Positions 617 through 45,757 of a stretch of 64,000 nucleotides of DNA are shown piece by piece. Under the pieces are notes generated by a model. The model was not told where the DNA came from, ran no database searches, and saw only the letters and a program-made list of their open reading frames with translations. The stretch is from Glaciecola nitratireducens FR1064 (GTDB lineage: Bacteria; Pseudomonadota; Gammaproteobacteria; Enterobacterales; Alteromonadaceae). The stretch lies in the NCBI RefSeq assembly GCF_000226565.1, contig NC_016041.1, positions 2,790,001-2,854,000 on the forward strand, in the 5' to 3' direction. The stretch's first letter is position 1. Every line of letters starts with the position of its first letter. The position numbers and the translations under genes were made by a program.

Positions 617-815
617 AAACCTTCTTCCAGTGAGGTATTGTTAGGGCAAAGGCTATATGAATACTAAAAGTAAATCAATTTACGGTTTAGGAATTCCATT
701 AACACACAGTTTTCGAAGTATGAAAATAGCAAGTCATACGTAAAATAGTTAACTAAGTGGACATTCATCGCAGTAAACATCAGAATACTGAGAAACTCCA
801 TATGATTAATTGGCG

Positions 816-2870
816 ATGCATCAGATATTTGTAGAGCATAGAAATAGCTATTCAAAAGAAAAACTCAAGCAATTATGGCTGGCTCTATATAAAAAAAGTA
901 CCCCAAACTTTTTTCTATCTTGGAGTTGGATAGGAAATTGGCTAAATAGCCTCGATGGTGAGTACATTGTTTGTGAGGCAAGAATTAATGATGAAACTGT
1001 TGGCTTAGGGATACTAGTTCAAAAGTCAATTACCCGAAATATTTTCGTTAAATCTAAACAACTTCACTTACATCGAACCGGTAATGAAAAGCTTGATCAA
1101 ACTTGGATTGAGTACAATGATTTTTTGCTTGCTCAAGGCACTGAGAAGGCGGTAAGAAAGTCGATGGTAGACCATTTAGTTCAAAGCGATGAGTGGGATG
1201 AAATTATCATTGGCGCATCTCAAAAAGCAGCCTTAACACCTTTTCATATGGCTAATTTAAATGAACAATTGGTATGGCACAGTCACAGCTACCAAGTTGA
1301 TTTAACTCACTTGCGGGAGACTAAGAAAGAGTATTTAGCTACCCTATCCAAAAATACTCGATATCAAATCAATCGAAGCATCAGGTCATACGAAAAGTTA
1401 GGTGAAATTCAACTAAGTACTGCATCATCATCGCAAGAAGCCCTTTCATGGCTTGCAGAAGCAGCTCCGTTTCACATCAATCGTTGGCGAAACACAACTG
1501 TAGGAAGTGGATTTACTAACCCGGTATTCGTTAAGTTCCATCAAGATTTAATTTCCAAAAACTTTGACAGAGGTTTCGTTGACCTAATAAAAGTCAGTGC
1601 CGGTAAGCATGTTATATGTTACCTATACAACTTTATTCAAGACAATGATGTAAAGTTTTATTTGTCTGCAAATAACTACGACGAAAACGATGCAACCTAT
1701 AAACCGGGTTTAGTGTCTCATTACTTAGCCATCAAACACTACCTAAACAAGGGGTTTGATGTATACGATTTCATGGCTGGAGAAAGTCAGTACAAACGCT
1801 CACTTTCTTCAATGTCATCACCTATTTATTTATCAATATTCAGCAAGCCAAAACTGCGGTTTACACTCGAAAACAAACTGCGTAACTTAAAGGATAAATA
1901 TAAAAAGCGGTCAGCACTCTCAAGCCAAGCAAACGCAATAAAGGTGATTCTGACTGGAGGACAAGAAAACGCGTCAAAAGACGGACCTCAATACAATAAT
2001 GCAAAAATTCTGCACTGTGAGATTTCACCTGAAGGTGCTCTTAGCATATTAAATAGCGTCGACTATTCGCCCACAACGAGTTTGCAATCAAAAAACACCA
2101 ATATCATCTACAAATCAGGCTCTATAAACAAAGCAATACTCTCAGTTGTTACCGAAACTGAAGTACACAAATACTCACTGCCTGACTTTACCTTAATCAA
2201 GAACTATTCATTACCCTGCTTCAACGATTTACATCACGTATTTACTCACAACGAAAAAGATTACGTGGTTAACACCGGCCTAGATTCTGTTATTGAAGTA
2301 ATTGACGAAAAAGATACCAAGCACTTCTCTACTTTGAAAAGTAGCGAGCTTAGCAAGTATCAACCCAACAAAGACTATCGCCAAATTGAAAGCACTAAAC
2401 CACACCTAACCCATCCTAACTTTGGCTTTGTATTAAATAACAAACTTTGGGTGACGCGCTGCGATACTATGGACGCAATTTGCCTTGAGGACGACTCACT
2501 TCGCATCGATATTGGTCAGAATTTAGTGCACGACGGCATGGTTTATAAAAACAATATTTACTTTACCAATGTGGATGGTCAAGTTCAGGTTTTTGATACA
2601 GAAACCCGAAAACTAAAACTAACCAGTGACCTGAATCATTTCATTCCGGATCTAGAGGGATGGTGTAGAGGCGTTTTACCCGTTTCTGCAAATTTGGTCT
2701 TGGTTGGATTTTCGAAAAACAGAGCCTCAAAAAAATTAAACGCAACTGCCCATTCTTATGGAAAAATAATTTTAATTGATATTTTGAAACACCAAAAAGT
2801 GTGGGAAGTGAACACCAGCGCTCTTGGCTTAGACGCCATATTCAGCATACTACCTGGAGACCAATCATGA
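816..2870 (+). CDS. CelD/BcsL-type GNAT acyltransferase fused to a propeller-like domain
   Basis: A two-part protein of about 684 residues. Residues 1 to ~365 resemble CelD/BcsL (FemAB-like double GNAT) acyltransferases, with the typical 'LSKNTRYQINRSIRSYEKLG' stretch near 185 and 'YDFMAGESQYKRSL' near 325; such proteins are thought to acylate or aminoacylate sugars or peptides. Residues ~380-684 are rich in short beta strands ('LHHVFTHNEKDYVVNTGLDSVIEV', 'DGMVYKNNIYFTNVDGQVQVFD'), suggesting a beta-propeller, but I do not recognise the family. No signal peptide is seen, so it is probably cytoplasmic. ATG at 816 is preferred; a TTG at 810 would add two residues. The stop overlaps the next start (ATGA), so the two genes are translationally coupled. 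The fusion is unusual. Confidence 0.75.
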   Translation: MHQIFVEHRNSYSKEKLKQLWLALYKKSTPNFFLSWSWIGNWLNSLDGEYIVCEARINDETVGLGILVQKSITRNIFVKSKQLHLHRTGNEKLDQTWIEYNDFLLAQGTEKAVRKSMVDHLVQSDEWDEIIIGASQKAALTPFHMANLNEQLVWHSHSYQVDLTHLRETKKEYLATLSKNTRYQINRSIRSYEKLGEIQLSTASSSQEALSWLAEAAPFHINRWRNTTVGSGFTNPVFVKFHQDLISKNFDRGFVDLIKVSAGKHVICYLYNFIQDNDVKFYLSANNYDENDATYKPGLVSHYLAIKHYLNKGFDVYDFMAGESQYKRSLSSMSSPIYLSIFSKPKLRFTLENKLRNLKDKYKKRSALSSQANAIKVILTGGQENASKDGPQYNNAKILHCEISPEGALSILNSVDYSPTTSLQSKNTNIIYKSGSINKAILSVVTETEVHKYSLPDFTLIKNYSLPCFNDLHHVFTHNEKDYVVNTGLDSVIEVIDEKDTKHFSTLKSSELSKYQPNKDYRQIESTKPHLTHPNFGFVLNNKLWVTRCDTMDAICLEDDSLRIDIGQNLVHDGMVYKNNIYFTNVDGQVQVFDTETRKLKLTSDLNHFIPDLEGWCRGVLPVSANLVLVGFSKNRASKKLNATAHSYGKIILIDILKHQKVWEVNTSALGLDAIFSILPGDQS

Positions 2871-4612
2871 ATAAAAAAGTATTGGTACTCGGTGAAGATA
2901 CACGCAGTTTTTTGAGCGTTATTCGATCATTAGGTAAAGCAGGATATCAAGTAGATGTAGTTTGCTACGACAGGCAATCGCCGTCCTTAAAATCTGTTTA
3001 CATTAGCAATGCTTATTTTCTAAATTATCAGTCCTACACACAAAGCGAATGGCTCGAAGCGCTAATAGAACTCGTTAAAATTGAAAAGTACGACGCCCTC
3101 TTCCCTTGCGATGAAAGAGCGATATTTCCGCTATTTGAAAATAAAGACAAGTTTCCGCCCTCTTGTGTACTGGCGATCCCTAACCAAGAAGTTATCGAGC
3201 ACCTGTTCGATAAAAGTACCACCAAACAAATAGCGATTAAATGTGGTGTGCCCGTTGCACGCGGCGAAATCATTACACTTAAAGATAAAAGCCTAGATTA
3301 CCTACAAACGCATTTCGGCCAAAAGTTTGTGATAAAACCAACTTTATCCTTTAAGTCTGAACAACTTTCAAAGCGTCAAAAAGTGGAAATAGTTGATACT
3401 CAAGAGCAACTTTCACAATACACAAAATACATAGATGCCGAAGACCAATTTCTGATTGAAGAGTACTTTACTGGCATTGGCGAAGGTGTAAGCCTGCTAG
3501 CAATGAATGGACAAGTACAACATTTGTTCGCACACGCCAGAGTGAATGAACCTAGAGCTGGCGGTGGGAGCTCTTACCGTAAAGCGATTCCTGTTGATGC
3601 TGGCATGGCCGAGTCTTGCATTAAACTTTGCGAGGCGACCAAGTTCAATGGTGTTGGCATGTTTGAATTCAAAAAGAATCAAACAACTGGCGACTGGATT
3701 TTAATTGAGGTTAACGCGCGCTTCTGGGGTTCACTCCCATTAGCGATTCATGCTGGCATCGACTTTCCTGCCGACTATGCAAAAGCCCTCTTTGGTGAGT
3801 TAACACCGCATAAATTACCTAATCAACAGTATAATTTAAAAGCGTACGCACGAAGCTTAAGTAATGACTTATATGATACAAAAGCCGAATTTGAATATGA
3901 TTTGCAGCATGGTGATGTTTTAAAAGGCGTTTATCGTTTATTCAAAAGAGGTATTGGTTACGGCCGACTATTAAGCAACGAAACCATTGATAGTTATGAT
4001 GCAAAAGACAAAGCGCCGTTTAAAGAAGAAGTGAAGCAGTTTTATCGAAACACATTAGGCGGCAAAATACGCAAAGTATTATCCAAGCCCACACACACAA
4101 CATCCGAAATGAATAGATTAATGGCGATGCTTTATGTTGCGCCTAGTGTGTCGATAAAATTCGTGTGTTACGGCAATATCATGCGCAGCCCCATGGCGCA
4201 TAAAACGCTGCAAACACTTTGCAATCAAGTGGACTTAGATTGGCAAATTGATTCCTTTGGCTTTCATCAAAACGAAAACAGACAAAGCCCGGTTGAATGC
4301 ATCAAAGGTGCAAAAAATATCGGTATCGACCTAGACACTCATCGCTCACAATGGCTAAAACAGTCTGCAGTTAATCCGGACGATGACATTATTTTTATTT
4401 TCGATGAGCGCAATAGCGACTTGTTGAGCAGTTTTTATGATTGTAAAAATGTATTTAATCTTGCACACTTTGTACCCAGTGGCTTAGGCCAACACCAAGA
4501 AATAGCCGATCCATACGGAAATGGCGATGAAGCCGTTAAATATTGCTACCTACTTGTTGTTGAAGCAGTTAAAAATATTTTTGAACAGTATCTGAAAGTG
4601 AATTCAAAGTGA
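2867..4612 (+). CDS. ATP-grasp ligase fused to low-molecular-weight protein-tyrosine phosphatase
   Basis: A 581-residue fusion. Residues 1 to ~380 are an ATP-grasp enzyme: N-terminal Rossmann-like 'KVLVLGEDTRSFLSVIRSLGKAG', a lysine-bearing strand 'KFVIKP' at 153-158, and the metal-binding 'EVNARFWGS' from 281. Residues ~428-578 are a low-molecular-weight phosphatase with an intact CX5R loop (C434 to R440, followed by S) and the general acid in DPY (D548). ATP-grasp enzymes join carboxylates to amines or thiols; Wzb-type phosphatases dephosphorylate BY-kinases in exopolysaccharide loci. The start overlaps the upstream stop (ATGA). ATG 2867 is chosen over an upstream in-frame start at 2801 that lies inside the previous gene. 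The stop overlaps a GTG that begins a truncated deacetylase frame. The substrate of the ligase half is unknown. Confidence 0.85.
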   Translation: MNKKVLVLGEDTRSFLSVIRSLGKAGYQVDVVCYDRQSPSLKSVYISNAYFLNYQSYTQSEWLEALIELVKIEKYDALFPCDERAIFPLFENKDKFPPSCVLAIPNQEVIEHLFDKSTTKQIAIKCGVPVARGEIITLKDKSLDYLQTHFGQKFVIKPTLSFKSEQLSKRQKVEIVDTQEQLSQYTKYIDAEDQFLIEEYFTGIGEGVSLLAMNGQVQHLFAHARVNEPRAGGGSSYRKAIPVDAGMAESCIKLCEATKFNGVGMFEFKKNQTTGDWILIEVNARFWGSLPLAIHAGIDFPADYAKALFGELTPHKLPNQQYNLKAYARSLSNDLYDTKAEFEYDLQHGDVLKGVYRLFKRGIGYGRLLSNETIDSYDAKDKAPFKEEVKQFYRNTLGGKIRKVLSKPTHTTSEMNRLMAMLYVAPSVSIKFVCYGNIMRSPMAHKTLQTLCNQVDLDWQIDSFGFHQNENRQSPVECIKGAKNIGIDLDTHRSQWLKQSAVNPDDDIIFIFDERNSDLLSSFYDCKNVFNLAHFVPSGLGQHQEIADPYGNGDEAVKYCYLLVVEAVKNIFEQYLKVNSK

Positions 4613-5140: not shown

Positions 5141-6456
5141 GAGCCTGTAACATATTCTGTGTAACTGCCATTAGTTAATATGTTTCTCGAGGCGGTTACC
5201 GAACTCGATAATAAAACGAACCATCGCCTGACGCCAGTTATGAATTGGCATCGACCACTTTTTCGATGCCTCGGTGATGGCCAAGTACACCATCTTCTTA
5301 GCTGAATCGTCACTTGGGAATATCTTCCGTTTCTTGATGGCCTTGCGAATAACGCTGTTGAGAGACTCAATGGCGTTAGTGGTGTAAATGGCTTTACGGA
5401 TATCCGCAGGGTAGTTAAATATCGTGTTTAAGTTCTGCCAATGCGCGTTCCACGACTTACTGATTTGCGGATATTGTTCATTCCAGGTATCACCAAAGCG
5501 CTCGAGTTCAAGCAAGGCTTCTTCCTCAGTGTTGGAGCGATAAACACGTTTTAAATCAGCCGTGACGGCCTTGTAGTCTTTCCACGACACATACTTCAAT
5601 GAATTACGCACCATGTGAACGACACACAGCTGAACGTTGGTTTCAGGGAATACGGCGTTAATTGCATCAGGGAAGCCTTTGAGGCCATCAACACAGGCAA
5701 TAAGGATATCTTCCACGCCTCGATGCTGCAGCTCCGTTAGCACGTTTAACCAGAACTTAGCGCCTTCGTTCTCAGCAATCCACATGCCCATTAATTCTTT
5801 TTGACCATCCGCGTTTATGCCTAATGCAAGGAAGATAGATTTGTTAATAACGCGTTTATCTTGCCTGATTTTAACTACAATACAGTCAAGGTAAACAATC
5901 GGATAGATAGGGTCTAGCGGGCGCGATTGCCATTCAATGACTTGGTCAATAACAGCGTTGGTGACTCTCGATATGAGGGTTGGCGATATCTCAGCACCAT
6001 ACCATTCGTCGAAGGCTTGAACGATTTCACGCGTGCTCATGCCTTGAGCGTAAAGCCACAATATCTTCTCGTCCATGGAGGTGAATCGGGACTGGTGTTT
6101 CTTGACTAATTTAGGCTCGAACGTGCCATCACTGTCGCGAGGAGTCTCAAGCTCGAACTCACCATCTTCCGTCTTGATGCGTTTGCTGGTTTTGCCGTTG
6201 CGGTTATTCTTTATGAGTGACTTAGCGTGTTTCTCATAGCCTAGATGCTCTTCCATCTCAGCATTCAACGCCGCTTCAACGGTAATTTTCTTAAGCATGA
6301 GACTGAATTCATTCAAGTCTTGCGGTGTTTTAATGCCTTTGGCTGCTTCCTTTGCGAAAGCTTCAAGTTCTTTTTTGTTCATCTGCATCTGCCTATCCTT
6401 AAACTCTCAATAGAGTAATTTATGATAAGCAGTTACACAAAATTAGTTACAGCCTC
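5141..6456 (-). mobile_element. Complete IS256-family insertion sequence, 1316 bp
   Basis: The element is bounded by 28 bp imperfect terminal inverted repeats: 5141-5168 and 6429-6456, matching at about 24 of 28 positions (GAGCCTGTAAC... against GAGGCTGTAAC..., both ending GTGTAACTGC). The direct repeat GGCTGTAA lies on both sides. One transposase gene fills it on the minus strand. All parts are intact, so it may be mobile and recent. It interrupts the acyltransferase gene. The target itself (GAGGCTGTAACT from 5131 in the rejoined site) matches the first 12 bases of the right inverted repeat. Confidence 0.9.
5171..6388 (-). CDS. IS256-family (Mutator-type) transposase
   Basis: A 405-residue protein with the length and motifs of IS256/Mutator transposases. 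The DDE residues are visible: D168 in 'YLDCIVVK', D234 in 'IACVDGLKGFPDAI', and E341 in 'TTNAIESLNSVIRKA'; the family 'C..H..RNS' signature appears as CVVHMVRNS near 255. It would catalyse cut-and-paste or copy-out movement of the surrounding element through its 28 bp ends. ATG 6388 is the first start; ATG 6382 (MNKKELEAF) is equally possible. The stop lies three bases from the left inverted repeat, as in compact IS elements. No frameshift or stop is seen. Confidence 0.95.
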   Translation of the reverse strand: MQMNKKELEAFAKEAAKGIKTPQDLNEFSLMLKKITVEAALNAEMEEHLGYEKHAKSLIKNNRNGKTSKRIKTEDGEFELETPRDSDGTFEPKLVKKHQSRFTSMDEKILWLYAQGMSTREIVQAFDEWYGAEISPTLISRVTNAVIDQVIEWQSRPLDPIYPIVYLDCIVVKIRQDKRVINKSIFLALGINADGQKELMGMWIAENEGAKFWLNVLTELQHRGVEDILIACVDGLKGFPDAINAVFPETNVQLCVVHMVRNSLKYVSWKDYKAVTADLKRVYRSNTEEEALLELERFGDTWNEQYPQISKSWNAHWQNLNTIFNYPADIRKAIYTTNAIESLNSVIRKAIKKRKIFPSDDSAKKMVYLAITEASKKWSMPIHNWRQAMVRFIIEFGNRLEKHIN

Positions 6457-8812: not shown

Positions 8813-9690
8813 TTTACATTCGTCCTATGTTGAGTTTTCTGAATAGTTAACAACACTGAGGCTAAAGCCTCCTGCCAATATGGCAAGGTTAGCGTCGGCA
8901 ATCCAGTCTTTAATGATTGCTTTGATAATACGCTATATAAGGGTCTTTTCGCCGGTGTTGGGTATTCGTTGGTGCTGATTGGCTTGATGGGTATTTGCTT
9001 TGAAATCAAGCCCTGTTGATACGCTATGCGCTGAATTGCTTTAGCAAAATCATACCAACTGGCCACGCCTTCATCGGTAACATGATGCACCCCGCGCAAC
9101 TGCTCTTGTGATGCAAGAATGCAAGCACGAGCCAAGGTATCGGCAGAAGTAGGCGTCCCTATTTGGTCGCAAATGATGCCTAATTGTTCTTTTTCTTCCA
9201 TAAATTTCAGCATGGAAGCCACGAAATTACCGCCAAACTCAGAATACACCCAGCTTGTTCGTAAAATGCAGCTTTTTTCATGTTTGCTAGAGAGAATGGC
9301 TTTTTCACCCAACATTTTGGTTTCGCCGTAAATATTTACAGGTTCGTAGTCGTCATCCGGTAAGTAAGCCGAGCCTTTATCTCCCTTAAATACATAGTCG
9401 GTTGATATATGCACGAAGTGAATATCATTTTTTTCGCAGTACTGATTTAAACGCGCCACCGCATGCTGATTAATGCTCAATGCTTGCTCTCGCTCACTCT
9501 CGGCTTTATCTACCGCGGTGTACGCTGATGCATTAATAATCGCACTGGGTTTGATTTCATCTAACACCGCAAAGGCGCTATCAGAAGTAATATCAATATC
9601 GCTTCGGCCAAGCGCGATGGCTTGTTTATCACCTAAAATCTCAATACATTTTTTGGCTAACTGACCGTTTTTTCCGATAATAACAATCAC
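8809..9690 (-). CDS. rmlD: dTDP-4-dehydrorhamnose reductase
   Basis: A 293-residue SDR protein with the N-terminal 'IIGKNGQLAKK' cofactor motif, 'HISTDYVFKGD' and 'VNIYGETKMLGEKAI' (YxxxK). It performs the last step to dTDP-L-rhamnose using NAD(P)H. It begins two bases after the rmlC frame ends and overlaps rmlB by 4 bp. The gene looks intact, but its substrate depends on rmlC, which is damaged here. Confidence 0.95.
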   Translation of the reverse strand: MIVIIGKNGQLAKKCIEILGDKQAIALGRSDIDITSDSAFAVLDEIKPSAIINASAYTAVDKAESEREQALSINQHAVARLNQYCEKNDIHFVHISTDYVFKGDKGSAYLPDDDYEPVNIYGETKMLGEKAILSSKHEKSCILRTSWVYSEFGGNFVASMLKFMEEKEQLGIICDQIGTPTSADTLARACILASQEQLRGVHHVTDEGVASWYDFAKAIQRIAYQQGLISKQIPIKPISTNEYPTPAKRPLYSVLSKQSLKTGLPTLTLPYWQEALASVLLTIQKTQHRTNVN

Positions 9691-9692
9691 AG

Positions 9693-10090: not shown

Positions 10091-10093
10091 GTT

Positions 10094-10975: not shown

Positions 10976-11072
10976 GTGTCGTCTCGTTTTAGTGGTAAAT
11001 TTAGTTTGCATTGTAGCGGAAATCGCACCGCCTGAAAACTGACAATTAAATTCAGCAAATAGAGCCAATTAT

Positions 11073-11292
11073 CTTAATTCTCGATGAACCCAACAGTGAG
11101 TTATTGAGGGATTTTTATGGTTGTAAAAATGTGTTTAATCTTGCACACTTTGTTTCAATTGGTTTAGGACAAAAAGACAAGATTGCAGATCCATACTGAA
11201 ATGGCGGTGAAGCTGTTAAATATTGTTATCTTCTCGTTGTTAAAGCCGTTAAAAATATTTTTGAACAGTATCTGAAAGTGAATTCAAAGTGA
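11073..11292 (+). pseudogene. Second, broken copy of the phosphatase tail (right copy of the duplicated junction)
   Basis: This segment matches 4401-4612 without obvious gaps: 'ILDEPNSELLRDFYGCKNVFNLAHF' parallels the phosphatase tail. It has an in-frame TGA inside the otherwise conserved DPY (GATCCATACTGA), and no start or catalytic loop. The first two-thirds are diverged, the last ~55 bases are identical to the other copy, and its stop overlaps the GTG of the deacetylase gene. It is a scar left when the rml/IS segment was placed between the phosphatase and deacetylase genes, or a piece of a donor allele of the same operon. Confidence 0.85.
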
Positions 11293-12242
11293 AAAAAGTA
11301 AAGCTGTCTATTGTTATCCATACTGAAGAAGAGTTTGATTGGGCCGGCGGCTTTAATCGACACAACACTTCGGTTACCCACGGTAAAGAACTTACCGAAA
11401 TGTGTGTGGATATGCTGAAATTAGGCTGCTGCATTACTTTTGCCATGGACTGGTCGTTCGTGACCTCAGAGCAAGGCCAAAACGTTATTCGCTTTATGCA
11501 AGAGAACTACACAGAACAAGTTGAGTTTGCTGCCCATTTGCATCCGTGGGTAAATCCTCCGTTTGATGAGCAGTACTCGGATACTGATAATATAGATGAG
11601 AAGCTATCCTACCCTGGGAATTTGCCTGCCGAATTAGAAAAAGCAAAGCTAGCCATGTTGACGGACAAAATTGCTGAGTTGACTGGACGAAGCCCGACGA
11701 CTTATTTAGCAGGGCGTTATGGTGTGGGTGAGAACACTTATAAAATATTGAGTGAGTTGGGTTATAAGGTTGATGTGAGTATTAGTCCTTTTGCTGATTT
11801 TAGGCATCAGGATGGGCCTGATTTTTCGAATAAAAATAATGCAAGCTTCACGCAAAATGGCATTAAATGTATTCCCCACTCCTCTGGTTACATTAGTCAT
11901 ATCGGCGTCTTAGCTGACTGGCTCAATAGAGACACAGCTAACCTGCATAACTTAAATAATAACGTTGTTGGCAAGGTGATACTTAAGTTACTTGGTGTGG
12001 AGCGTGTGAGGCTTTCTCCTGAAGGTTTTGATGAAGCGCAAATGAAGAAGCTGGTTGCTTCACTTACCAGAACTGGGGTTGAGCATTTGATTTATTCTTT
12101 TCATTCTTCGACTAGTAAGTTGGGTGGGTCGCCTTATGTTGAAACGAAAGAAAGCGTGCAGCAAATGTATAAGAATAATAGCGATATACTAACCACTATT
12201 ACTTCTGTTACTACCCCATCTTTGTTCGCTGATCTATTATGA
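11289..12242 (+). CDS. WalW-like polysaccharide deacetylase
   Basis: A 317-residue protein starting at GTG, which overlaps the preceding phosphatase-fragment stop. 'LSIVIHTEEEFDW' at the start, 'EFAAHLHPWVNPPF' near 77 and 'TTYLAGRYGVGENTYKILSELGYKVDVS' near 137 fit the NodB-homology fold as seen in WalW-type deacetylases, where D/E and His residues bind metal. It would remove N- or O-acetyl groups from a sugar, probably of surface polysaccharide; no signal peptide is visible. The same first codons sit directly behind the intact ATP-grasp/phosphatase gene at 4609, so the gene probably formed an operon with it before the intervening segment arrived. Confidence 0.75.
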   Translation: MKKVKLSIVIHTEEEFDWAGGFNRHNTSVTHGKELTEMCVDMLKLGCCITFAMDWSFVTSEQGQNVIRFMQENYTEQVEFAAHLHPWVNPPFDEQYSDTDNIDEKLSYPGNLPAELEKAKLAMLTDKIAELTGRSPTTYLAGRYGVGENTYKILSELGYKVDVSISPFADFRHQDGPDFSNKNNASFTQNGIKCIPHSSGYISHIGVLADWLNRDTANLHNLNNNVVGKVILKLLGVERVRLSPEGFDEAQMKKLVASLTRTGVEHLIYSFHSSTSKLGGSPYVETKESVQQMYKNNSDILTTITSVTTPSLFADLL

Positions 12243-12375: not shown

Positions 12376-13358
12376 ATGACGCCTCTAGCCCAAACACCGT
12401 TTTTAAGTTTAGTTGTTCCGACTAGGAACAGACCTCAGTTATTTAGAAGAGCAATTCTGTCTATCTTGAATCAGACGTTCACTAATATTGAAATAATTGC
12501 TGTGGTAGACGGTGCAACGAATGATGATTTACTTGAATATCAAAAGTTAGAGAAAAAATTTAGAACAGCCTTAACATTTATTTTCCTTCCACACAGAGAA
12601 AATGGGCATGGTCCAAGCTTTGCGCGAAACACCGGGATAAATGTCTCGAAAGGCCTATATATTGGCTTTTTGGATGACGATGACGAATGGACATGCAATG
12701 AACATCTAGCAAGGTTTTATAAATCTTATGAGAAATCTAATGCAAAGCTTGATATATATTTCTCTAACCAACGAGCATTAAAAACGAACGGTGACGAAGT
12801 TAACGGCCCAGTATGGATTGAGGACGTAATAAAAAAACAAATAGCCTAGAGCAAATAATAGATGATGTATTCATCGTAAAGTTAACAACATTACTAACCA
12901 GCAATGGTTTTTCACATCTTAATTGCACAATAATAAAAAAGGAGCTTGTTTCTAAAATCGAGGGGTTTAACGAGTCTTTGCGCTACGAAGAAGATAAAAA
13001 CTTTTATTTAAGGGCTATTGATCAAGCAAGGTATATACTTTTTCACTCTAAGTTTATAGGTACGCACTACGTTCCAGATTCTAAAAGCGCATCTACCAAT
13101 TTAGAAAATATTCGTAAACTTGAATGCCAAATATGCGGTGTGACAAACCTTCTAAATAAGCTAGACCATTTAGCTTTGCGCAAAAAATGTCAACTCCACT
13201 TGTCTACTTTTTATAAGCAGCTAACCGAAACAAAGAAAGCTAGCGGTGATTATCATAGTGCTTTGTTATTTAGCCGTTTAGCCCTCGCATCAAAATTTTC
13301 ATTAAAATGGTTTCTGTATAGCTGCTTTTTGCGCTTTAAATACGGTTGGGGAAAATAG
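12376..13358 (+). pseudogene. Family 2 glycosyltransferase, frameshifted at an A7 run
   Basis: The first frame (12376-12849) gives 157 residues with a GT-A start 'PFLSLVVPTRNRPQLFRRAI' and the acceptor/metal region 'FARNTGINVSKGLYIGFLDDDDEW'. At A7 (12831-12837) the frame runs into TAG. One extra A, or a -1 slip, continues into a second frame open to 13358: 'TNSLEQIIDD', then 'EGFNESLRYEEDKNFYLRAID', the typical second half of GT2 enzymes. Together they make a full-length enzyme of about 327 residues. It is either a recent pseudogene, a gene read by slippage on A-AAA-AAA, or a run-length error in the assembly. Sugar specificity is unknown. Confidence 0.8.
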
Positions 13359-33226: not shown

Positions 33227-35128
33227 CTACCAATACACATCATTTTTCCGCACAAACTGCGAAAACATAAACACCGTCCACAGTTCAGCACCATAATCGC
33301 GCTTATTGTTTTGATGCGCTTGAAACATTTTCTCAAGCTGCCGGCTATCAAATATATCCAGTGCTAATAACTTCGGCTCAGAAATGGCTTTTTGCAATTG
33401 TTCTTTCAAGGGCCCACGCAACCATTCCGACAACGGTATACTGAAGCCCATCTTGTCACGGTATAAGTTGTCGTGCGGTAAATGCGGCTCTAAGGCTTTT
33501 TTAAATAAGGCTTTACCGTTCGACCCTTCAATATTTTGCTCAGTCTGCAAACTAAAATAACTATCAATAAACTCATGATCAAGCATGGGCACGCGCACTT
33601 CTAGGCTATTTGCCATACTTACACGATCAACTTTGACTAAAATATCACTTGGCATCCAGGTTTTAAAATCAAGGTACTGCGCTTCTTTCACTGGGCAGTC
33701 AAACGACTTAGTTCGCAGGATATCAATGAAAACTTGCTCTGAATTGTACCCCTCTAGCTTTTGCTCAAAGCCAGTTGAATACAGTTTTTTGCGCTCATCT
33801 TCTCGAATTTTACTCACGCCATTCAAATAGCCTTTCCAACTGCTCATTGATAGCGACTGAAAGGTCGTTTTTGCCCTCAAGAAGCGAGGCGCCCAATCCG
33901 CCTTGGGGTAAATAATTGATAAGGGCTTAAACACCAATTGGCGAATAATACTGGGTATTTTCGAACGCAACTTTTCTTCGTTTTTATGCAGCTTATAACG
34001 TCTATAACCGCCAAATAATTCGTCACCCGCATCGCCAGATAAACAAACCGTGACGTATTTTCGCGCTACCTCGCATACTTTAAATGTGGGTAAGGCTGAG
34101 CTGTCGGAAAAAGGCTCGTCGTACATATCAATCAAACTGTCAATTAAGCCGAAATCATCATGACTTACGATATCTAGATGGTGATCAGTATTATATTTAT
34201 CAGCCACCGCTTGCGCGAACTCAGACTCATTAAATTCTGGCACATCAAAGCCAATAGAACAGGTAGTCACTTTTTTATCTGGATTAAGCTGCGCCATCGC
34301 CGCAACCACGCCGCTTGAATCAACACCGCCAGATAAAAAGGCACCTAAAGGAACTTCCGACATCATGCGCTGGCTGACTTTATGTTTAAAGTCGGCGTAC
34401 AGCGTTTCTGGGTTGCCGATTTTACTACTGCTGGTTTGTTCAATGTCCCAATATTGATGTTGGCGCAAACTGGCATCGCTCATATCATTGGAAATAGGAA
34501 AGTGCATAAAGTGCGCTGGCTGAAGCTTTTTAACATGCTTAAAAATAGAGCGTGTTTCTGGCACGTAGCCAAAGGTTAGATAATCTTCCACCGCTTGCGG
34601 AGACAGCGCTTGGTCAAACTCAGGGTGAGCCTGCAGCACTTTTAATTCTGATGAAAATAAGAAGCTATCGTTGATGATGGTGTAAAAGAAGGGCTTTTCG
34701 CCAACTCTATCGCGCGCCATAAACACCGCGTTTTGCGCTTTGTCGTATAGCACAAAAGCAAACATGCCGTTAAAGTGTTGCAAACAATCAGTGCCCCACT
34801 CTTGATAGGCACGAATGATGGTTTCGGTGTCGCTGTGAGTGTTAAATACGTGGCCTTTTGCTTCCAGCATGGCGTTCACGTCGAGGAAGTTATAGATCTC
34901 GCCGTTAAACACAATCACAATATCTTTGTTGTCGCTGAACATCGGTTGCTGGCCGCTCGACACATCAATAATCGACAAGCGACGATGTGCCAAACCAATG
35001 CCTTTATCGAAATAATAGCCTTCCGCGTCTGGGCCGCGATGTGCTTGCGTTCTGTTCATTTCTTTCAGTAAAGACTCGTCTATATTGTATTTACCCGTCA
35101 ACGATATAAAGCCGCTAATTCCGCACAT
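33227..35128 (-). CDS. Asparagine-synthetase-like amidotransferase, exosortase A-associated
   Basis: A 633-residue class II glutamine amidotransferase. Cys2 (MCGISGF) is the N-terminal nucleophile that frees ammonia from glutamine, with 'AHRGPDAEGYYFD' and 'VFNGEIYNF' in the glutaminase domain (1-200). 'PLGAFLSGGVDSSGVVAAMA' near 260 is the ATP-pyrophosphatase SGGxDS loop of the synthetase domain. The family member at exosortase A loci probably forms an amide on a sugar acid of the exopolysaccharide, not free asparagine. It overlaps the glycosyltransferase upstream by 14 bp. Full length and intact. Confidence 0.92.
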   Translation of the reverse strand: MCGISGFISLTGKYNIDESLLKEMNRTQAHRGPDAEGYYFDKGIGLAHRRLSIIDVSSGQQPMFSDNKDIVIVFNGEIYNFLDVNAMLEAKGHVFNTHSDTETIIRAYQEWGTDCLQHFNGMFAFVLYDKAQNAVFMARDRVGEKPFFYTIINDSFLFSSELKVLQAHPEFDQALSPQAVEDYLTFGYVPETRSIFKHVKKLQPAHFMHFPISNDMSDASLRQHQYWDIEQTSSSKIGNPETLYADFKHKVSQRMMSEVPLGAFLSGGVDSSGVVAAMAQLNPDKKVTTCSIGFDVPEFNESEFAQAVADKYNTDHHLDIVSHDDFGLIDSLIDMYDEPFSDSSALPTFKVCEVARKYVTVCLSGDAGDELFGGYRRYKLHKNEEKLRSKIPSIIRQLVFKPLSIIYPKADWAPRFLRAKTTFQSLSMSSWKGYLNGVSKIREDERKKLYSTGFEQKLEGYNSEQVFIDILRTKSFDCPVKEAQYLDFKTWMPSDILVKVDRVSMANSLEVRVPMLDHEFIDSYFSLQTEQNIEGSNGKALFKKALEPHLPHDNLYRDKMGFSIPLSEWLRGPLKEQLQKAISEPKLLALDIFDSRQLEKMFQAHQNNKRDYGAELWTVFMFSQFVRKNDVYW

Positions 35129-36272
35129 GAGCTAATCCTTGTTGGTATAACGCTAAATATTGATTGATCATGGTGTTTTGACTAAATCGTTCTTCCACTA
35201 ATTGCTGCGAGGCTGCCTGCATCTCTTGGAATACGGGCCCATATTCGCCTTCAGCTTTGTATTTATCGAACATAAGCAACAGTCCTTCGCTTAGTGCTTC
35301 CACCGATTTAGCATCGACTAAAATGGCTTGCTCCTTACTCGTTATTTCAGGGATGCCGCCAACACGTGTGCTAACAACTGGCAAGCCGCTAGACATTGCC
35401 TCAAGCATAGTCATTGGAACACCTTCAGCATCAGATGACATAACGAATACGTTAAGCGCTTGGTATACCGCTGGCATGTCGTGGCGTTCACCCCACATTT
35501 CTATATTTTGTGGGCATGATGAATTGGCTATCTGTTGCTCTAAGGCTTCTTGCAGCGGTCCTTTTCCTACAACAACAAGTTTTGTTTCCGCTTTGAATTT
35601 TTCGCTTTGCTCGCAGGCTAATACATAACTTGCAATCAGGTTCTTTTGATTCTTAATTGCTTGCAGTCGGCCTACGTGTCCAAAAATCAGCGCTTGTGCG
35701 GCAGTTGAACCTTCACTTACCGCAGCGCCAGTGTGCCGTTCTGCCGGTTTATATTGCGCAGTATCTACACCGTTTAAAATCAGATCGCATTTTTTGTCAG
35801 ACAAGCCTACGACATTTATTAGCCATTGATGTAAGTCATCACTTACCGACACAATCTTATGCACAAAAGGCGCAACAAGCTTGCGCAGTATTTGATATTT
35901 CTTATTTGTGCCATCCGGGTCGTGAACATCTCGTCCATGTTCAGCATGCAGTCGAAACGGCACTCTTGCTAGCGCAGCCATGGTTTGAAACTCCAAGCTA
36001 GCCAGATTATAAGAATGTAAAATATCGGGCTTCTCTTGTTTCAATACAGCATAAAACTGCTTAAACGTGCCCCAGCTCTGCCCTTGCGGTTTGTTTAAGG
36101 CTATCATTTTTACCGACTTAGCAAGTTGCGCCACAAACTCTTCCGAATAATTGGTAAGCGTCACAATGGTGTGCTCATAATTATCCGGCAAACTGGCGAT
36201 GCAGTTTGCGATAATACGCTCAAGGCCACCTACATCGAAGCTATAGACAAGGTGCATGAGTTTAATTTTCAT
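35115..36272 (-). CDS. GT4 sugar transferase, exosortase A-associated (second type)
   Basis: A 385-residue GT-B enzyme. 'IKLMHLVYSFDVGGLERIIANC' at the start, 'RLHAEHGRDVHDPDG' near 112 and 'DLILNGVDTAQYKP' near 165 are typical of the second sugar transferase in EpsH/XrtA loci. 'SDAEGVPMTMLEAMSSGLPV' near 285 is the E-x7-E donor site. It touches the XrtA gene (ends share one base) and overlaps the amidotransferase gene by 14 bp, so all are translated as a chain. It adds a sugar to the exopolysaccharide unit; specificity unknown. Confidence 0.92.
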   Translation of the reverse strand: MKIKLMHLVYSFDVGGLERIIANCIASLPDNYEHTIVTLTNYSEEFVAQLAKSVKMIALNKPQGQSWGTFKQFYAVLKQEKPDILHSYNLASLEFQTMAALARVPFRLHAEHGRDVHDPDGTNKKYQILRKLVAPFVHKIVSVSDDLHQWLINVVGLSDKKCDLILNGVDTAQYKPAERHTGAAVSEGSTAAQALIFGHVGRLQAIKNQKNLIASYVLACEQSEKFKAETKLVVVGKGPLQEALEQQIANSSCPQNIEMWGERHDMPAVYQALNVFVMSSDAEGVPMTMLEAMSSGLPVVSTRVGGIPEITSKEQAILVDAKSVEALSEGLLLMFDKYKAEGEYGPVFQEMQAASQQLVEERFSQNTMINQYLALYQQGLAHVRN

Positions 36273-37720
36273 TAGTACTGAAAACCTTCAATTGCCGCTT
36301 CCATCGCCTTTATCTTGGCTTCTCTTGATGGCAATTCGCTATTCACCTGAACGGCAATAAACACACCTGCCCCATGATTGCCCGCTAGCTTACTGATGGT
36401 TTGATTCACTTTTGTCGGAATTGAGCTTGCGGTGCGCTTGCCATCTACCTCGAACCAATAAACTAAAGCAACGTTGTTGCCTCGAATGTCGACCAACTCA
36501 ATCAGATTCACTTGGCCTTTTGACGTCATTTCTCTATCAATTGTTTTCCGCGTGAAGTTGTCAATATTGTAATAACGACTCAAGCCACTGACCATTTCAT
36601 GCTCATCGTTGTCAAAATAATACTTAGCAACGTAAATCGGCGTTTGGTTATTATTCGTCTTGTAAACGCCTGACCATTCTTCATGTGGGTTGGTCATATC
36701 AGGTTGCCAAGAAAGTTCTTGTGGCGTGAAGGCTTCATTAGCATTGAGCGTATTTGTTAAGTTGGACGAAGGCACTGGCGGTATGGAATTGATATAAAAA
36801 GTGGTGTAGGTGCCGACCGTCGCAACGACTAGCAGCGACATTATCAAGTTCTGGATAGGCATAACCTTAACAGTGCCTGTGGGCGCGCCTTCAATTTTCT
36901 CACTTTGGGTGTTTTCGCGACCAATTTGTCCAATGCCAAAAAGTAACAGCAAGACAAACGCAAAGAAGAACCAACCATACACTAAGTGATCGGCCCCTGT
37001 GGCATGCTCCATATCGGTTAGATAACCAATAACAACGATGCCAAACGCACGGATACCATTAGCAATAATTGGCACAATAAGCGACGCAAAAACAAACGCG
37101 ACAATTTTCCAACGCGTTTTATAGTTAAGATAGGCAAACAAAGTACCCAAGGCAAACGATGCAATTAAGAATCGAATACCAGCACATGCTTCAGCCACTA
37201 AGAACGTGCCGTTAGGCACATACAAATACAAACCTTCTCGGTAAATAGGAATACCTACTAGCTGCAGCATTTCGACGGTTAAATACGCCGTAATATCTTG
37301 CAGTACAGGTACCAATTCATCACCAAAAGGAATGGTAAAGGCTAAGAAAAACAAAGGAAAGGCGAATCGATATACAAATTGATTGCCAAAACAAAGCCAG
37401 ACAATAAGCACCAAAGACAAGTAGGCACTAGCATGAGTAAACAGATTGATGCCTAGCAATTCGCTGAACATGTTTATCACTTGCACAGCAAATAGAGCTA
37501 GCAGCACCCAGTAATTTGGCTGTAGCTGAGTATGCACAAACTCCGACTTACGTTCGTAGAATAAATACAGGACTACCGGCACGATAAAGAAGCAGTGTTT
37601 GTAGGTTTCAGATGAACCCCATACTTCCACCATGCTCACGAGTGTTGAGAAATAAAGCACAAACCAGGCAGCCAAAAATACGCCAAACTGCAAAACAATC
37701 CTTTTATTTTGACTCATCAA
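36272..37720 (-). CDS. xrtA: Exosortase A fused to EpsI
   Basis: A 482-residue fusion. Residues 1-~265 are an eight-helix membrane transpeptidase, exosortase A/EpsH. The catalytic residues are visible: C179 in 'EACAGIRFLIASFALG', R224 in 'NGIRAFGIVVIGYLTD' and H245 in 'DHLVYGWFFF'. It should cut PEP-CTERM tails and attach the proteins to a glycan or lipid at the membrane. Residues ~290-482 are the EpsI domain ('SNLTNTLNANEAFTPQELSW', 'GVYKTNNNQTPIYVAKYYFD'), periplasmic, needed for exopolysaccharide in related systems. It overlaps the upstream transferase by 4 bp. No PEP-CTERM substrate gene is in the window. Confidence 0.95.
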   Translation of the reverse strand: MMSQNKRIVLQFGVFLAAWFVLYFSTLVSMVEVWGSSETYKHCFFIVPVVLYLFYERKSEFVHTQLQPNYWVLLALFAVQVINMFSELLGINLFTHASAYLSLVLIVWLCFGNQFVYRFAFPLFFLAFTIPFGDELVPVLQDITAYLTVEMLQLVGIPIYREGLYLYVPNGTFLVAEACAGIRFLIASFALGTLFAYLNYKTRWKIVAFVFASLIVPIIANGIRAFGIVVIGYLTDMEHATGADHLVYGWFFFAFVLLLLFGIGQIGRENTQSEKIEGAPTGTVKVMPIQNLIMSLLVVATVGTYTTFYINSIPPVPSSNLTNTLNANEAFTPQELSWQPDMTNPHEEWSGVYKTNNNQTPIYVAKYYFDNDEHEMVSGLSRYYNIDNFTRKTIDREMTSKGQVNLIELVDIRGNNVALVYWFEVDGKRTASSIPTKVNQTISKLAGNHGAGVFIAVQVNSELPSREAKIKAMEAAIEGFQY

Positions 37721-40004: not shown

Positions 40005-40850
40005 CTACTTGTTTATTCCGTAAACCTCGGCCATCGTTGACCATTCATGGTCTTTGATAAGTTTCACCAATTTCTTTTCCATTGCGTGCAGGTTAACGTA
40101 ATGTCGTAATTTTGATTTAAACGGAGCCCCTTCAACGCGAGGCTGATCTGCGTCTATTTCCCAAGGATGAAAGTAGAAGTTATACGGTTCTGTGGTTGTT
40201 TCCATGTATCTTTTTATACGTCGGTTTGATAACCAATAAGGATAAAGACGAAAATAGCCACCACCACCAATACCGGTGTTCTTGCCATTGCTGGCTATGG
40301 TCGGTACAGGTATTTCAATAATGCCTTCTTTGCGCACATGCTTAAATCTTGGCCAATCCGGCACGCCATATAGGTCATGTTCTATTGGGTAAGTACTTGA
40401 GCTGTATTTGAAGCCTTGTTCAACCAGAATATCAAACACCCACTCATTAGTTTTATTAATAGAAAAACTGGGCGCACGATATCCTAGCAATGCTTTGCCT
40501 GAGGCTTGTTCGAGCTTGTCTTTGCTAATACGAATATCTTCAAATACTTCGTCACGCGTCATGGTTGTTGTGCGTCGATGGTTAGAACCGTGACTGCCTA
40601 ACTCATGACCTTCATCAACAATTCGTTTCACGACATCTGGACAATGTTCCGCCACCCAACCAAGCGTAAAAAATGTGCCTTTTATGCCGTGTTCGTTAAA
40701 TAAGTCAATTAAGCGGTGTGTATTATTGCCAACGCGCGGCGTGATACTAGACCAGTCTGAGGGCGAAATAACCGATTCAAACGCAGATACGTGGAAGTAA
40801 TCTTCAACATCTACTGTCATCGCGTTAAGTCTTTTGGGGTGAACCTGCAT
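40005..40850 (-). CDS. Polysaccharide deacetylase with DUF3473-type tail, exosortase A-associated
   Basis: A 281-residue NodB-fold protein. 'LNAMTVDVEDYFHVSAFESV' near the start carries the metal/catalytic Asp pair (D14, D17), 'KGTFFTLGWVAEHCPDVVKRI' near 53 and 'GHELGSHGSNHRRT' near 81 the metal His residues. 'YNFYFHPWEIDADQPR' near 222 is the DUF3473-like tail. It would de-N-acetylate a sugar in the lipid-linked unit or polymer. No signal peptide is seen, so it probably acts in the cytoplasm. Gaps to neighbours are 32 and 35 bp. Intact. Confidence 0.93.
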   Translation of the reverse strand: MQVHPKRLNAMTVDVEDYFHVSAFESVISPSDWSSITPRVGNNTHRLIDLFNEHGIKGTFFTLGWVAEHCPDVVKRIVDEGHELGSHGSNHRRTTTMTRDEVFEDIRISKDKLEQASGKALLGYRAPSFSINKTNEWVFDILVEQGFKYSSSTYPIEHDLYGVPDWPRFKHVRKEGIIEIPVPTIASNGKNTGIGGGGYFRLYPYWLSNRRIKRYMETTTEPYNFYFHPWEIDADQPRVEGAPFKSKLRHYVNLHAMEKKLVKLIKDHEWSTMAEVYGINK

Positions 40851-43136: not shown

Positions 43137-44714
43137 ATGCAAGATTTAGAACAAACCATTCAAATGGTGCTCGACTTTATCCGAGGGATATGGATAAAGA
43201 AAAGATACGTGATGATATGTTCATGGCTGATATGTCCTATTGGCTTTTTTTATGTTTCTACTTTGCCCGACGTTTATGAGTCAGATGCACAGGTATTCGT
43301 GGATACTCGCTCAGTGCTACAGCCAATACTCAGGGGTTTAGCATTCGGGACTAATCCTGAACAAGAAATTCAGATGATGGCAAAAACGCTGCTAAGTCGC
43401 TCAAACGTAGAAACGATTGCTCGCGAGTCTGATTTAGACATCACCGTAACTACCGACGAAGCATACAATAAACTCATTACTAACTTGACCGACGATATAA
43501 ACCTTGCGGGAACAGGTCGCGACAACATCTACACCATTTCATATTCTAATCAAAACCCTGGAATGGCAAGAACTGTAGTACAAGAAACACTTGATTTGTT
43601 TGTTGAAGGCTCATTAGGCAACTCCCGTCGCGACGTTGATACAACCACTCGATTCCTTGATGACCAAATTGCAGAATACGAATCCAGCTTATCAGAGAGC
43701 GAGCAACGCCTTGCTGACTTCAAAAAACAGTATGCTGAGATCCTCCCCGGAGAAGGCACCTTCTACAACAACCTTCAGTCTTTGCGCAGCCTGCTGGAAG
43801 GTACCGAACTCACGATTAAAGAAACTCAGCAGCAAATTAACGCGATGAGAGGACAAACTCGTCAAGCACAAAAGGCAGCCGACGGTTTTGGCGTTCGCAG
43901 CAATGACGGAGAACAAGTATTAACTACGCGTTATGACGACCGTATACTGGGTTTGGAAGGACGTTTGGACGAACTGAAGCTGCGATTTACCGAAAAACAT
44001 CCTGACGTTATTGAATCACAAAATTTGTTAGACTCACTCAAAGAACAGCGAGAAAAAGAAATTAATGCGTTTATGGCACAAGACACCGGTGATGCCCCGT
44101 CTATGCTGACCGAGTCAGACCGTCAACTAAGCCTTGAAATTACCCGCTTAGAGGGGCTGCTCGCGTCATTGAATGTCAGAAAAACTGATACCAAGCGCAA
44201 GATTGAAGATTTACAATCCAAAATTGACTTAGTGCCGCAAATAGAAGCGGAACAAACTGCTCTCAACCGCGATTACGGAATTAAAAAGCAGAAATATGAA
44301 GAACTGCTGTCGCGTCGAGAGTCTAACGACTTAACGCGCCGCGCAGATGTTCAGTCTGAAGATTTGCAGTTCAGGATTATTCGACCGCCTCTGATTGCCA
44401 GTCAACCTAGCGGTCCAAAACGTATCTTATTCTACACAGGTATTTTGTTTGTTGGTTTCGGTATGGGGGTGGGCATTGCGTTCTTAATGAGCATGGTTAA
44501 GCCGGTTTTAGTTCGCGGCCAACAGCTCAGTGACTTAACCGGTTTCCCTATTTGGGGCATGGTGGGTCACTTAGATATAGTAAAAATCAAAAAACGAAAC
44601 AAAATGCGTATCTTTATTTTTGCATTATCGTCCGGTGCTATTCTTTTGCTATACGCTGGCTTAGTAGTGGTAGATGTAATGAACATTGATTTAGCGAGCA
44701 AATTTCCATTATGA
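43137..44714 (+). CDS. Chain-length determinant (Wzz/GumC-like), exosortase A-associated
   Basis: A 525-residue inner-membrane co-polymerase. One helix near 20-40 ('YVMICSWLICPIGFFYVSTL') and another near 425-450 ('ILFYTGILFVGFGMGVGIAF') enclose a large periplasmic coiled-coil domain (residues 160-375), with a third helix at ~480-505. 'LPDVYESDAQVFVDTRSVLQPIL' near 48 is the conserved Wzz start; the PQAP-like segment appears as 'LIASQPSGPKR' before the second helix. It sets chain length and links the kinase to the export channel. The stop overlaps the kinase start by 4 bp. Confidence 0.93.
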   Translation: MQDLEQTIQMVLDFIRGIWIKKRYVMICSWLICPIGFFYVSTLPDVYESDAQVFVDTRSVLQPILRGLAFGTNPEQEIQMMAKTLLSRSNVETIARESDLDITVTTDEAYNKLITNLTDDINLAGTGRDNIYTISYSNQNPGMARTVVQETLDLFVEGSLGNSRRDVDTTTRFLDDQIAEYESSLSESEQRLADFKKQYAEILPGEGTFYNNLQSLRSLLEGTELTIKETQQQINAMRGQTRQAQKAADGFGVRSNDGEQVLTTRYDDRILGLEGRLDELKLRFTEKHPDVIESQNLLDSLKEQREKEINAFMAQDTGDAPSMLTESDRQLSLEITRLEGLLASLNVRKTDTKRKIEDLQSKIDLVPQIEAEQTALNRDYGIKKQKYEELLSRRESNDLTRRADVQSEDLQFRIIRPPLIASQPSGPKRILFYTGILFVGFGMGVGIAFLMSMVKPVLVRGQQLSDLTGFPIWGMVGHLDIVKIKKRNKMRIFIFALSSGAILLLYAGLVVVDVMNIDLASKFPL

Positions 44715-45757
44715 ACAATACAATAGAAAAAGCCTTACTTCGCCAAAAAGAAGCTGAGCGTTTGAAAAAGGAAGCTGAACTCTTAAATGATGAAGCAAAG
44801 GAACTTGAAAATTTAGCTGCAGAGAGTTTGTCTCAGGATGAACCTGAACCTACCCTAGCCCGCGCAATTGAAGCCAGTGCAATTAAGGCCAGTGAAGTTG
44901 AAGCAAATGCAATTGAAGCAAATGCAATAGTGTCGCCTGCTAGCGCAGAAGCTGGGAGTAGCGGGCAAAGCGACGATACGCTTACCACAGAGCGGTTTTT
45001 TGACATTGATATTGCTAGCTTAGAAAAACGCGGATTTGTCTCTTTGCACAGCACCCGCAGCCAGATTAATGAAGAGTATCGCGAAATAAAGCGCAAGCTT
45101 TTATCCAACGCATTCGGGGCACTGTCGAAAACAATCACTAATGCCAATATTATTATGGTTACCAGCGCGCGTCCAAGCGAAGGAAAAACCTTCACAGCCG
45201 TTAACTTAGCATTAAGTATTGCTGCAGAAAAAGACAAACGCGTGTTGCTTGTCGACGCTGATGTTTTAAAACCGAATACGCTGCGAACCTTAGGCCTAAC
45301 AGAGCGCTCCGGTTTGATGGAGTATTTACTAGGTGATGTGAAGAAAATTGGGCAAGTCATGTTTCGTTCTAACATCGATAAATTACGGATTATTCCAGCT
45401 GGACGGTCGCATCACTTATCAACAGAATTGTTAGCCAGTCAGGCGATGCACGATCTAATTACAGAGTTCTCCACGCGCTATGCTGACCGCGTTGTGATCA
45501 TAGACACACCACCCATTATTGGTATCAATGAGTCTGCTGTATTGGCCAACTTCGCTGGTCAAGCCGTTGTTGTAGTAGAAGAAGGCCGCTCAAGATTATC
45601 GGACATTCAAAAGACAGTGGAACGTTTAAATCCTAATATGGCAATTGGCTTTGTTGTTAATAAATCGCTCAATACATCAGAGCAAACTGGTTATTATGGC
45701 TACCACTATTACGGATCCGACAGAGAAGGCGAAGAACAGCCTGCTCCAAAAGCGTAA
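44711..45757 (+). CDS. BY-type tyrosine kinase, exosortase A-associated
   Basis: A 348-residue cytoplasmic autokinase. Residues 5-40 are a charged coiled coil. Walker A 'SARPSEGKT' ends at 160, Walker A' is 'VLLVDADVLKP' (177-187), Walker B 'VVIIDTPPI' lies near 261-269. The C-terminal cluster YYGYHYY supplies five tyrosines (328, 329, 331, 333, 334) for autophosphorylation. It controls the chain-length protein encoded just upstream. Residues ~52-71 are a four-unit repeat from 15-bp tandem repeats (44864-44923). No stand-alone phosphatase is nearby; the only one seen is the ATP-grasp fusion at 2867. Confidence 0.94.
   Translation: MNNTIEKALLRQKEAERLKKEAELLNDEAKELENLAAESLSQDEPEPTLARAIEASAIKASEVEANAIEANAIVSPASAEAGSSGQSDDTLTTERFFDIDIASLEKRGFVSLHSTRSQINEEYREIKRKLLSNAFGALSKTITNANIIMVTSARPSEGKTFTAVNLALSIAAEKDKRVLLVDADVLKPNTLRTLGLTERSGLMEYLLGDVKKIGQVMFRSNIDKLRIIPAGRSHHLSTELLASQAMHDLITEFSTRYADRVVIIDTPPIIGINESAVLANFAGQAVVVVEEGRSRLSDIQKTVERLNPNMAIGFVVNKSLNTSEQTGYYGYHYYGSDREGEEQPAPKA
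44864..44923 (+). repeat. Four imperfect 15 bp tandem repeats in the kinase gene
   Basis: Units at 44864, 44879, 44894 and 44909 encode AIEAS, AIKAS, EVEAN, AIEAN in the linker between coiled coil and kinase domain. Gain or loss of a unit would keep the frame. Confidence 0.8.

Follow-up and report, generated by a model that had tools for sequence, protein, structure and literature searches.

A low-molecular-weight phosphatase fused to an ATP-grasp ligase follows a tailoring module more closely than a tyrosine kinase

A stretch of 64,000 nucleotides from Glaciecola nitratireducens FR1064 (the window; C1:2790001-2854000 of genome G000, a single contig of 4.13 Mb) carries, in an exosortase A (XrtA) locus, a gene in which an ATP-grasp ligase fold is joined to a low-molecular-weight protein tyrosine phosphatase (LMW-PTP, hereafter PTP) with complete catalytic residues, as shown by homology. 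Comparison between genomes shows that the PTP goes with a tailoring module, comprising the ATP-grasp gene and often deacetylase and GNAT genes, more closely than with the bacterial tyrosine kinase (BY-kinase) of the same clusters. The PTP is thus probably dedicated to the ATP-grasp module, rather than being the counter-enzyme of the kinase that an earlier note on this sequence had proposed.

The fusion is encoded by an uninterrupted open reading frame of 581 amino acids at 2867-4612 on the forward strand, with the ATP-grasp part on the N-terminal side and the LMW-PTP at the C-terminal end; an alternative GTG start lies in the same frame at 2801. Its parts are as follows.

2867..3826, + strand: ATP-grasp domain, amino acids 1-320 (Pfam).
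3827..4150, + strand: linker, amino acids 321-428, less conserved than the other parts (five fusions share 29-42% identity with the window's).
4151..4609, + strand: LMW-PTP domain, amino acids 429-581 (PF01451, E 4.6e-19; motifs in 12/12 fusions; clade I of the tree described below).
4166-4189, + strand: P-loop CYGNIMRS; 4508-4516: acid DPY; 4610-4612: stop codon.

With this open frame and Pfam matches to both halves (LMWPc over amino acids 430-571, E 4.6e-19 and 69.5 bits against a cut-off of 23.2; ATPgrasp_Ter over 194-322 at 32.5 bits and CPSase_L_D2 over 247-299 at 23.5 bits, both above cut-off), the fusion is genuine; NCBIfam ATP-grasp models span amino acids 3-311 with scores below cut-off. 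The CX5R loop and DPY acid are intact, as the earlier note had it: neither C434-YGNIM-R440-S nor D548-P-Y varies across six aligned fusions, the P-loop CYGNIMR, with its Cys nucleophile and Arg, is kept together with DPY in all 12 fusions, and the loss of the Cys in homologues, which the note had named as telling against its proposal, is not seen. In the ATP-grasp domain, E281 and N283 (E-x-N) are invariant in six fusions and also in 16 homologues, fused and unfused. The full motif CxGNxCRS, as given in PMC7948962, is absent, the second Cys being Met in 12/12 fusions; hence membership of the LMW-PTP family rests on the profile match of 69.5 bits. The description of the domain as 'Wzb-type' is a loose one, as the Wzb equivalog model NF007520 scores 21.9 bits against a cut-off of 243 and the domain falls outside the clade of housekeeping PTPs. 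The housekeeping PTP of the window genome is likewise below the NF007520 cut-off (72.1 bits). Compared with solved structures, the best relative of the PTP domain scores 41 bits and Wzb 23.5 bits. A two-sequence AlphaFold2 model, considered for the ATP-grasp fold, has a mean predicted local distance difference test score of 47.

Matches at E <= 1e-30 are present in 15 of 395 genomes of the family, comprising 12 full fusions and three unfused ATP-grasp proteins (G231, G352 and G400). The other fusions are 44-60% identical to the window's, and one carrier is Rheinheimera maricola MA-13. A search of 369 genomes of the class detected the fusion in the window's genome and G035, both of the same family, and an unfused ATP-grasp in 10 others. 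As the fusions form one group in the trees of both domains (support 100/99 for the PTP and 99/98 for the ATP-grasp), the simplest reading of these sequences is that a single fusion event would account for them.

The kinase is found in 259 of 395 family genomes; no fusion genome lacks it (12/12), and of the 383 genomes without the fusion 247 have it. The positions of PTPs in clusters with and without an ATP-grasp were compared using 62 family controls, taken from listed kinase places with few contigs favoured and with the fusion genomes, G231, G352 and G400 excluded, and 51 class controls, drawn from 84 with ATP-grasp genomes and kinases near a contig start excluded. A PTP was counted as 'in cluster' when it lay up to 30 kb from either the ATP-grasp or the kinase in genomes with an ATP-grasp, and up to 60 kb from the kinase in controls, so the rules differ between the two; all co-occurrence counts are raw, ignoring kinship. 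Some genomes are fragmented, such that a cluster split over contigs hides PTPs, and this affects the 51 class controls more than the 62 family controls.

Among the 62 kinase-bearing family genomes without the fusion, a PTP lies within 60 kb of the kinase in two (G301 and G127), which are also the two with a close unfused ATP-grasp; this scores 502-515 bits and is 1.4-1.8 kb away from the PTP. None of the remaining 60, which lack a close ATP-grasp, has a cluster PTP (Fisher p 5e-4, kinship ignored). In G231, G352 and G400 the PTP is 1.4 kb from the ATP-grasp (3/3) and 32-34 kb from the kinase, giving, over these five genomes together, distances of 1.4-1.8 kb to the ATP-grasp and 27-34 kb to the kinase. 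In the class, a cluster PTP accompanies the ATP-grasp in 9/10 genomes (G432, G493, G619, G620, G691, G717, G720, G750 and G765), the tenth, G581, being a 7.3-kb contig that could not be judged and was entered as a miss. By contrast, the kinase-bearing class genomes without an ATP-grasp have a PTP within 60 kb in 2/51 cases: in G535 it is 41 kb away, and in G730 it is 57 kb away and has a housekeeping-like score. In a further class control, G630, a PTP is 77 kb from the kinase, and four of the 51 (G552, G630, G748 and G772) have no LMWPc match above 90 bits. The behaviour of a Wzb-like cognate phosphatase, travelling with the kinase, is therefore not observed, with PTPs in 2/62 family and 2/51 class controls.

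These distributions weaken the proposal that the fusion acts on the BY-kinase in the way that Wzb acts on Wzc, its PTP domain removing phosphate from the Tyr tail and thereby linking the kinase cycle to the ligase. A PTP is near the kinase in only 2/62 fusion-less family genomes, both with a close ATP-grasp, and every one of the 12 fusion genomes has a further LMW-PTP at another site. Such a role is doubtful, despite the kinase being present in every fusion genome, at 30-40 kb in the six where both are on the same contig (G000, G011, G035, G138, G269 and G395), despite the Tyr-rich tails of the kinases read from eight fusion genomes, and despite Wzb/Wzc cycling being described for capsules (PMC7948962). 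A PTP gene beside the kinase in relatives, which the note had also named as telling against its proposal, was not found directly adjacent to it, though cluster PTPs do lie 4.7 kb (G620), 5.9 kb (G493) and 8.3 kb (G717) from the kinase in the class. These short distances speak for a role on the kinase and raise its likelihood slightly.

Several observations weigh against tying the PTP to the ligase in a tailoring role. The PTP is nearer to the kinase than to the ATP-grasp in the three class genomes just named (G620, 4.7 against 15.9 kb; G493, 5.9 against 12.3 kb; G717, 8.3 against 8.5 kb). In G432 the PTP was found only on the contig of the kinase, at a distance of 9.8 kb, and the ATP-grasp is on a different contig. 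The PTP of G765 lies 18 kb away from the ATP-grasp and on a separate contig from the kinase, and that of G691 has the ATP-grasp at 28 kb and the kinase at 48 kb. Seven of the 62 family controls have a distant ATP-grasp (81-125 bits) near the kinase and no cluster PTP; G048 likewise has a distant ATP-grasp near the kinase and no cluster PTP. The frequency of the kinase is itself higher with the fusion (12/12) than without it (247/383), and co-occurrence may mark a type of cluster rather than a direct partnership. Furthermore, the two PTP lineages described below differ in their pocket residues, and the substrates of functionally characterised LMW-PTPs are phosphotyrosine, phosphoarginine or arsenate. 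Given the class loci in which the PTP is far from the ATP-grasp or nearer to the kinase, PTP and ATP-grasp are tied by being present in the same cluster, closely so within the family and less closely across the class.

Fusion and kinase are on different contigs in G027 and G218, and the place of the kinase is not listed in four fusion genomes. All kinases read from fusion genomes (n=8) have a Tyr-rich tail, as do 4/4 of the non-fusion kinases read, and the five-Tyr tail of the window's kinase was accordingly rejected as a special mark. Kinases with 3-6 tail Tyr were read in most clusters with a PTP and an ATP-grasp. The cluster kinase homologues of G619 and G750 (L109 and L110), however, lack the Walker A lysine by eye (SRGGGAS and TQRAGNT, against SEGKT-like sequences elsewhere), with one and no Tyr, respectively, in the last 40 residues. 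Both are apparently degenerate, and may not be true orthologues, because they score below the kinase model cut-off. The cluster PTPs of these two genomes nevertheless keep C, R and DPY, which is a further point against a counter-enzyme. The four weaker kinase matches in G619 resemble, by eye, other P-loop ATPases and have no Tyr-rich tail; a further kinase homologue of G750, encoded on a separate contig, retains Walker A but has no Tyr tail, and, in the same genome, that were read of the five weaker kinase matches have no Tyr-rich tail. This survey implies that the PTP has been kept where no Tyr-tailed kinase was found.

A tree of 43 PTP domains, 27 of them cluster PTPs and none a Wzb of known function, separates clade I, consisting of the 12 fusions and five solo PTPs (support 96/94), from clade II, consisting of seven solo PTPs and three fusions to a deacetylase (99/97). 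Housekeeping PTPs form a third group (100/98). C, R and Asp-Pro are kept in 27/27 cluster PTPs. The 17 members of clade I share a Tyr at the first P-loop position and an Arg at one site of the presumed W-loop, and their second Cys is replaced by Met or, in the five solo members, by Tyr. In the Vibrio Wzb the first P-loop position flanks the bound ring (PMC7948962), and a changed substrate in clade I is therefore possible. The ATP-grasp tree broadly agrees with that of the PTPs: the fusions group together, as do the ATP-grasp partners of the five solo clade I PTPs (89/94) and 8/10 clade II partners (96/93), with those of G025, on a very long branch, and G619 placed elsewhere. Such agreement is also expected from the inheritance of whole clusters.

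The neighbourhoods of fused and unfused loci contain recurrent tailoring genes. In 10/12 fusion loci a GNAT of the same similarity cluster is found upstream, directly or one gene away, and in 10/12, the window included, a gene of the type found in the window at 11289-12242 is downstream, again directly or one gene away; in the window it has been displaced from the fusion by rearrangement, and the fusion locus of G296 stops at a contig edge. In the unfused loci, the ATP-grasp has a neighbour in a polysaccharide deacetylase cluster in 11/17 cases (two members of this cluster being named by Pfam), and ATP-grasp and PTP are adjacent or one gene apart in G025, G231, G352, G400, G301, G127, G720 and G750. 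Three genomes, G720, G493 and G620, encode the PTP as the C-terminal half of a polysaccharide deacetylase (Pfam was applied to the first two).

L080:8242-9795, L088:4794-6386 and L089:10760-12349: deacetylase-LMW-PTP fusions in the three class genomes.

Two further arrangements were seen. G025 encodes a further, distant ATP-grasp joined to a GNAT, its Pfam ATP-grasp match being below cut-off, and an NAD-synthase-like gene, named from G432, directly precedes the clade I PTP in G432, G717 and G750.

L036:6997-9249: 751-amino-acid protein of distant ATP-grasp and GNAT, adjoining a solo PTP.
L091:1054-2683; L082:7735-9286; end of L094 with start of L076: NAD-synthase-like gene before the PTP, three loci.

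The joining of PTPs to two kinds of tailoring enzyme would also be explained, along with the tracking of the ATP-grasp by the PTP, if a kinase phosphorylated Tyr residues of the ATP-grasp, or of a tailoring enzyme beside it, and the attached PTP reversed this in cis. The 3-6 tail Tyr of kinases in most of these clusters fit such regulation, but it seems rather unlikely, considering that the Walker A lysine is missing from the cluster homologue of G619 and that this genome's four weaker matches look like other P-loop ATPases. That the PTP domain is a passenger, decayed or with another chemistry such as arsenate reduction, and adds nothing to the polysaccharide, is highly improbable. The replacement of the second Cys of CxGNxCRS in clade I points in that direction, as does the lower conservation of the PTP in the two most distant fusions compared (39% identity to the window's, against 49-50% for the ATP-grasp), although in two nearer fusions the PTP is not less conserved than the ATP-grasp; the retention of the catalytic residues across fusions and cluster PTPs and the fusion to two kinds of tailoring enzyme argue against it.

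In the favoured reading, the fusion would be a bifunctional enzyme that tailors the XrtA exopolysaccharide. A deacetylase would free an amine, or a uronic acid supply a carboxylate, and the ATP-grasp would attach an amino acid or another acid in amide linkage to an exopolysaccharide precursor. The PTP would take phosphate off an intermediate of the same small pathway, and the fusion would keep the ligase and phosphatase steps together. That its substrate is such an intermediate rather than a phosphoprotein is put forward tentatively, as somewhat short of an even prospect; confidence in this is lowered by the three class loci in which the PTP is nearer to the kinase. In the mycothiol pathway, a phosphatase, a deacetylase, a ligase and a GNAT act in turn on an amino sugar; its ligase and deacetylase seem to belong to families other than those of the window, whose set sits in a polysaccharide locus. 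By analogy, an LMW-PTP might have been recruited as a biosynthetic enzyme in a similar order of dephosphorylation, deacetylation, amino acid ligation and acetylation that decorates XrtA exopolysaccharides, with two PTP lineages fused separately, to an ATP-grasp or to a deacetylase, but this is a speculative and unlikely extension. Amino-acid-decorated polysaccharides are known from other marine bacteria, Colwellia (Thr, Ala) and Vibrio (PMC5852497), in keeping with the amide-forming step of the favoured reading.

The surrounding locus is that of an exosortase, as the earlier note recognised: curated models for exosortase A, chain-length determinant, kinase, export protein, FemAB, deacetylase, glycosyltransferase and amidotransferase all score above cut-off. 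The BY-kinase with a five-Tyr tail described there was also confirmed, 40 kb from the fusion.

810..2870, + strand: GNAT (Acetyltransf_6, PF13480, 80.9 bits) with C-terminal extension, directly upstream of the fusion, overlapping its start by 4 bases.
11041..11289, + strand: remnant of a second copy of the fusion 3' end (71% over amino acids 499-581; in-frame stops), abutting the gene 11289-12242.
11289..12242, + strand: gene of a type downstream of the fusion in nine other fusion loci; no Pfam or NCBIfam match.
12376..13358, + strand: downstream-set glycosyltransferase, occupying two reading frames here (12376-12849 and 12978-13358) and one in the relatives compared.
33227..35128, - strand: XrtA/PEP-CTERM system amidotransferase (TIGR03108, 887.5 bits).
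36272..37720, - strand: exosortase A (TIGR03109, 321.4 bits).
40005..40850, - strand: XrtA system polysaccharide deacetylase (TIGR03006, 390 bits).
43137..44714, + strand: XrtA chain-length determinant (TIGR03007, 494.7 bits).
44711..45757, + strand: XrtA-associated BY-kinase (TIGR03018, 251.7 bits, cut-off 230.65), five Tyr in the last 45 residues.

Between the two copies of the fusion end are a transposase, broken pieces of an acyltransferase and an rml-like sugar block at 7751-11068 (names by eye), which together with the second-copy remnant indicate that the locus has been rearranged; an apparent IS256-type transposase gene (by eye) occupies 5171-6388, between the fusion and the rml-like block. 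The gene at 11289-12242 was rejected as a proven deacetylase: it is deacetylase-like by eye only, and profile comparison with the deacetylase cluster was not supportive (12%). To the left of the window is an HprK-related kinase A (TIGR04352, 361.5 bits; L033:943-1806).

Only one of the three LMWPc matches of the window genome lies inside the window, in agreement with the earlier note's remark that no other PTP gene is present there. The search for further phosphatase genes that it suggested did find two, neither in the window.

C1:1476131: second LMWPc gene, housekeeping by score, with lipid A/murein neighbours by eye.
C1:263383: third LMWPc gene, matching arsenate-reductase models below their cut-offs.

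The fusion is hence not the sole candidate phosphatase of the genome, and was rejected as such. More generally, a second LMW-PTP of at least 120 bits is found elsewhere in 89/89 genomes checked, and one of at least 120 bits is present in 62/62 family controls.

Each component is of a known kind. The fusion resembles the LMW-PTP family (PF01451; Wzb, Etp, AmsI) in its profile match, C-x-G-N-I-x-R-S P-loop, Asp-Pro-Tyr acid and location in a BY-kinase polysaccharide locus, but differs in its ATP-grasp partner, the Met for the second P-loop Cys, the Tyr at the first P-loop position, the clade I W-loop Arg and its place outside the housekeeping clade; it also scores far below the cut-off of the Wzb model. 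With ATP-grasp ligases (PRK12767 / carbamoyl-phosphate-synthase-like; PDB 2pn1; the L-amino acid ligase BL00235, 3vot) it has a profile and the E-x-N in common, yet the relationship is distant, a 16-row profile scoring 72 bits to 2pn1 and 36 to 3vot, which is too far to transfer a product. The marker genes are those of the XrtA/PEP-CTERM system, to which the ATP-grasp/PTP pair is an accessory (fusion in 12/395, kinase in 259/395 family genomes). In agreement with the earlier note, no description of the pairing of ATP-grasp and PTP, or of the coupling of PTP to deacetylase, was found in the open-access papers searched, though domain databases may list it.

Where a bacterial polysaccharide locus encodes an LMW-PTP, this is commonly taken for the partner of a BY-kinase, whereas here the PTP follows the ligase more than the kinase. 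Since related PTPs are, in addition, fused to the ligase or to a deacetylase, the prediction is that a phosphate-removal step, or a dedicated regulatory step, would form part of the decoration of the polymer that goes with exosortase A.

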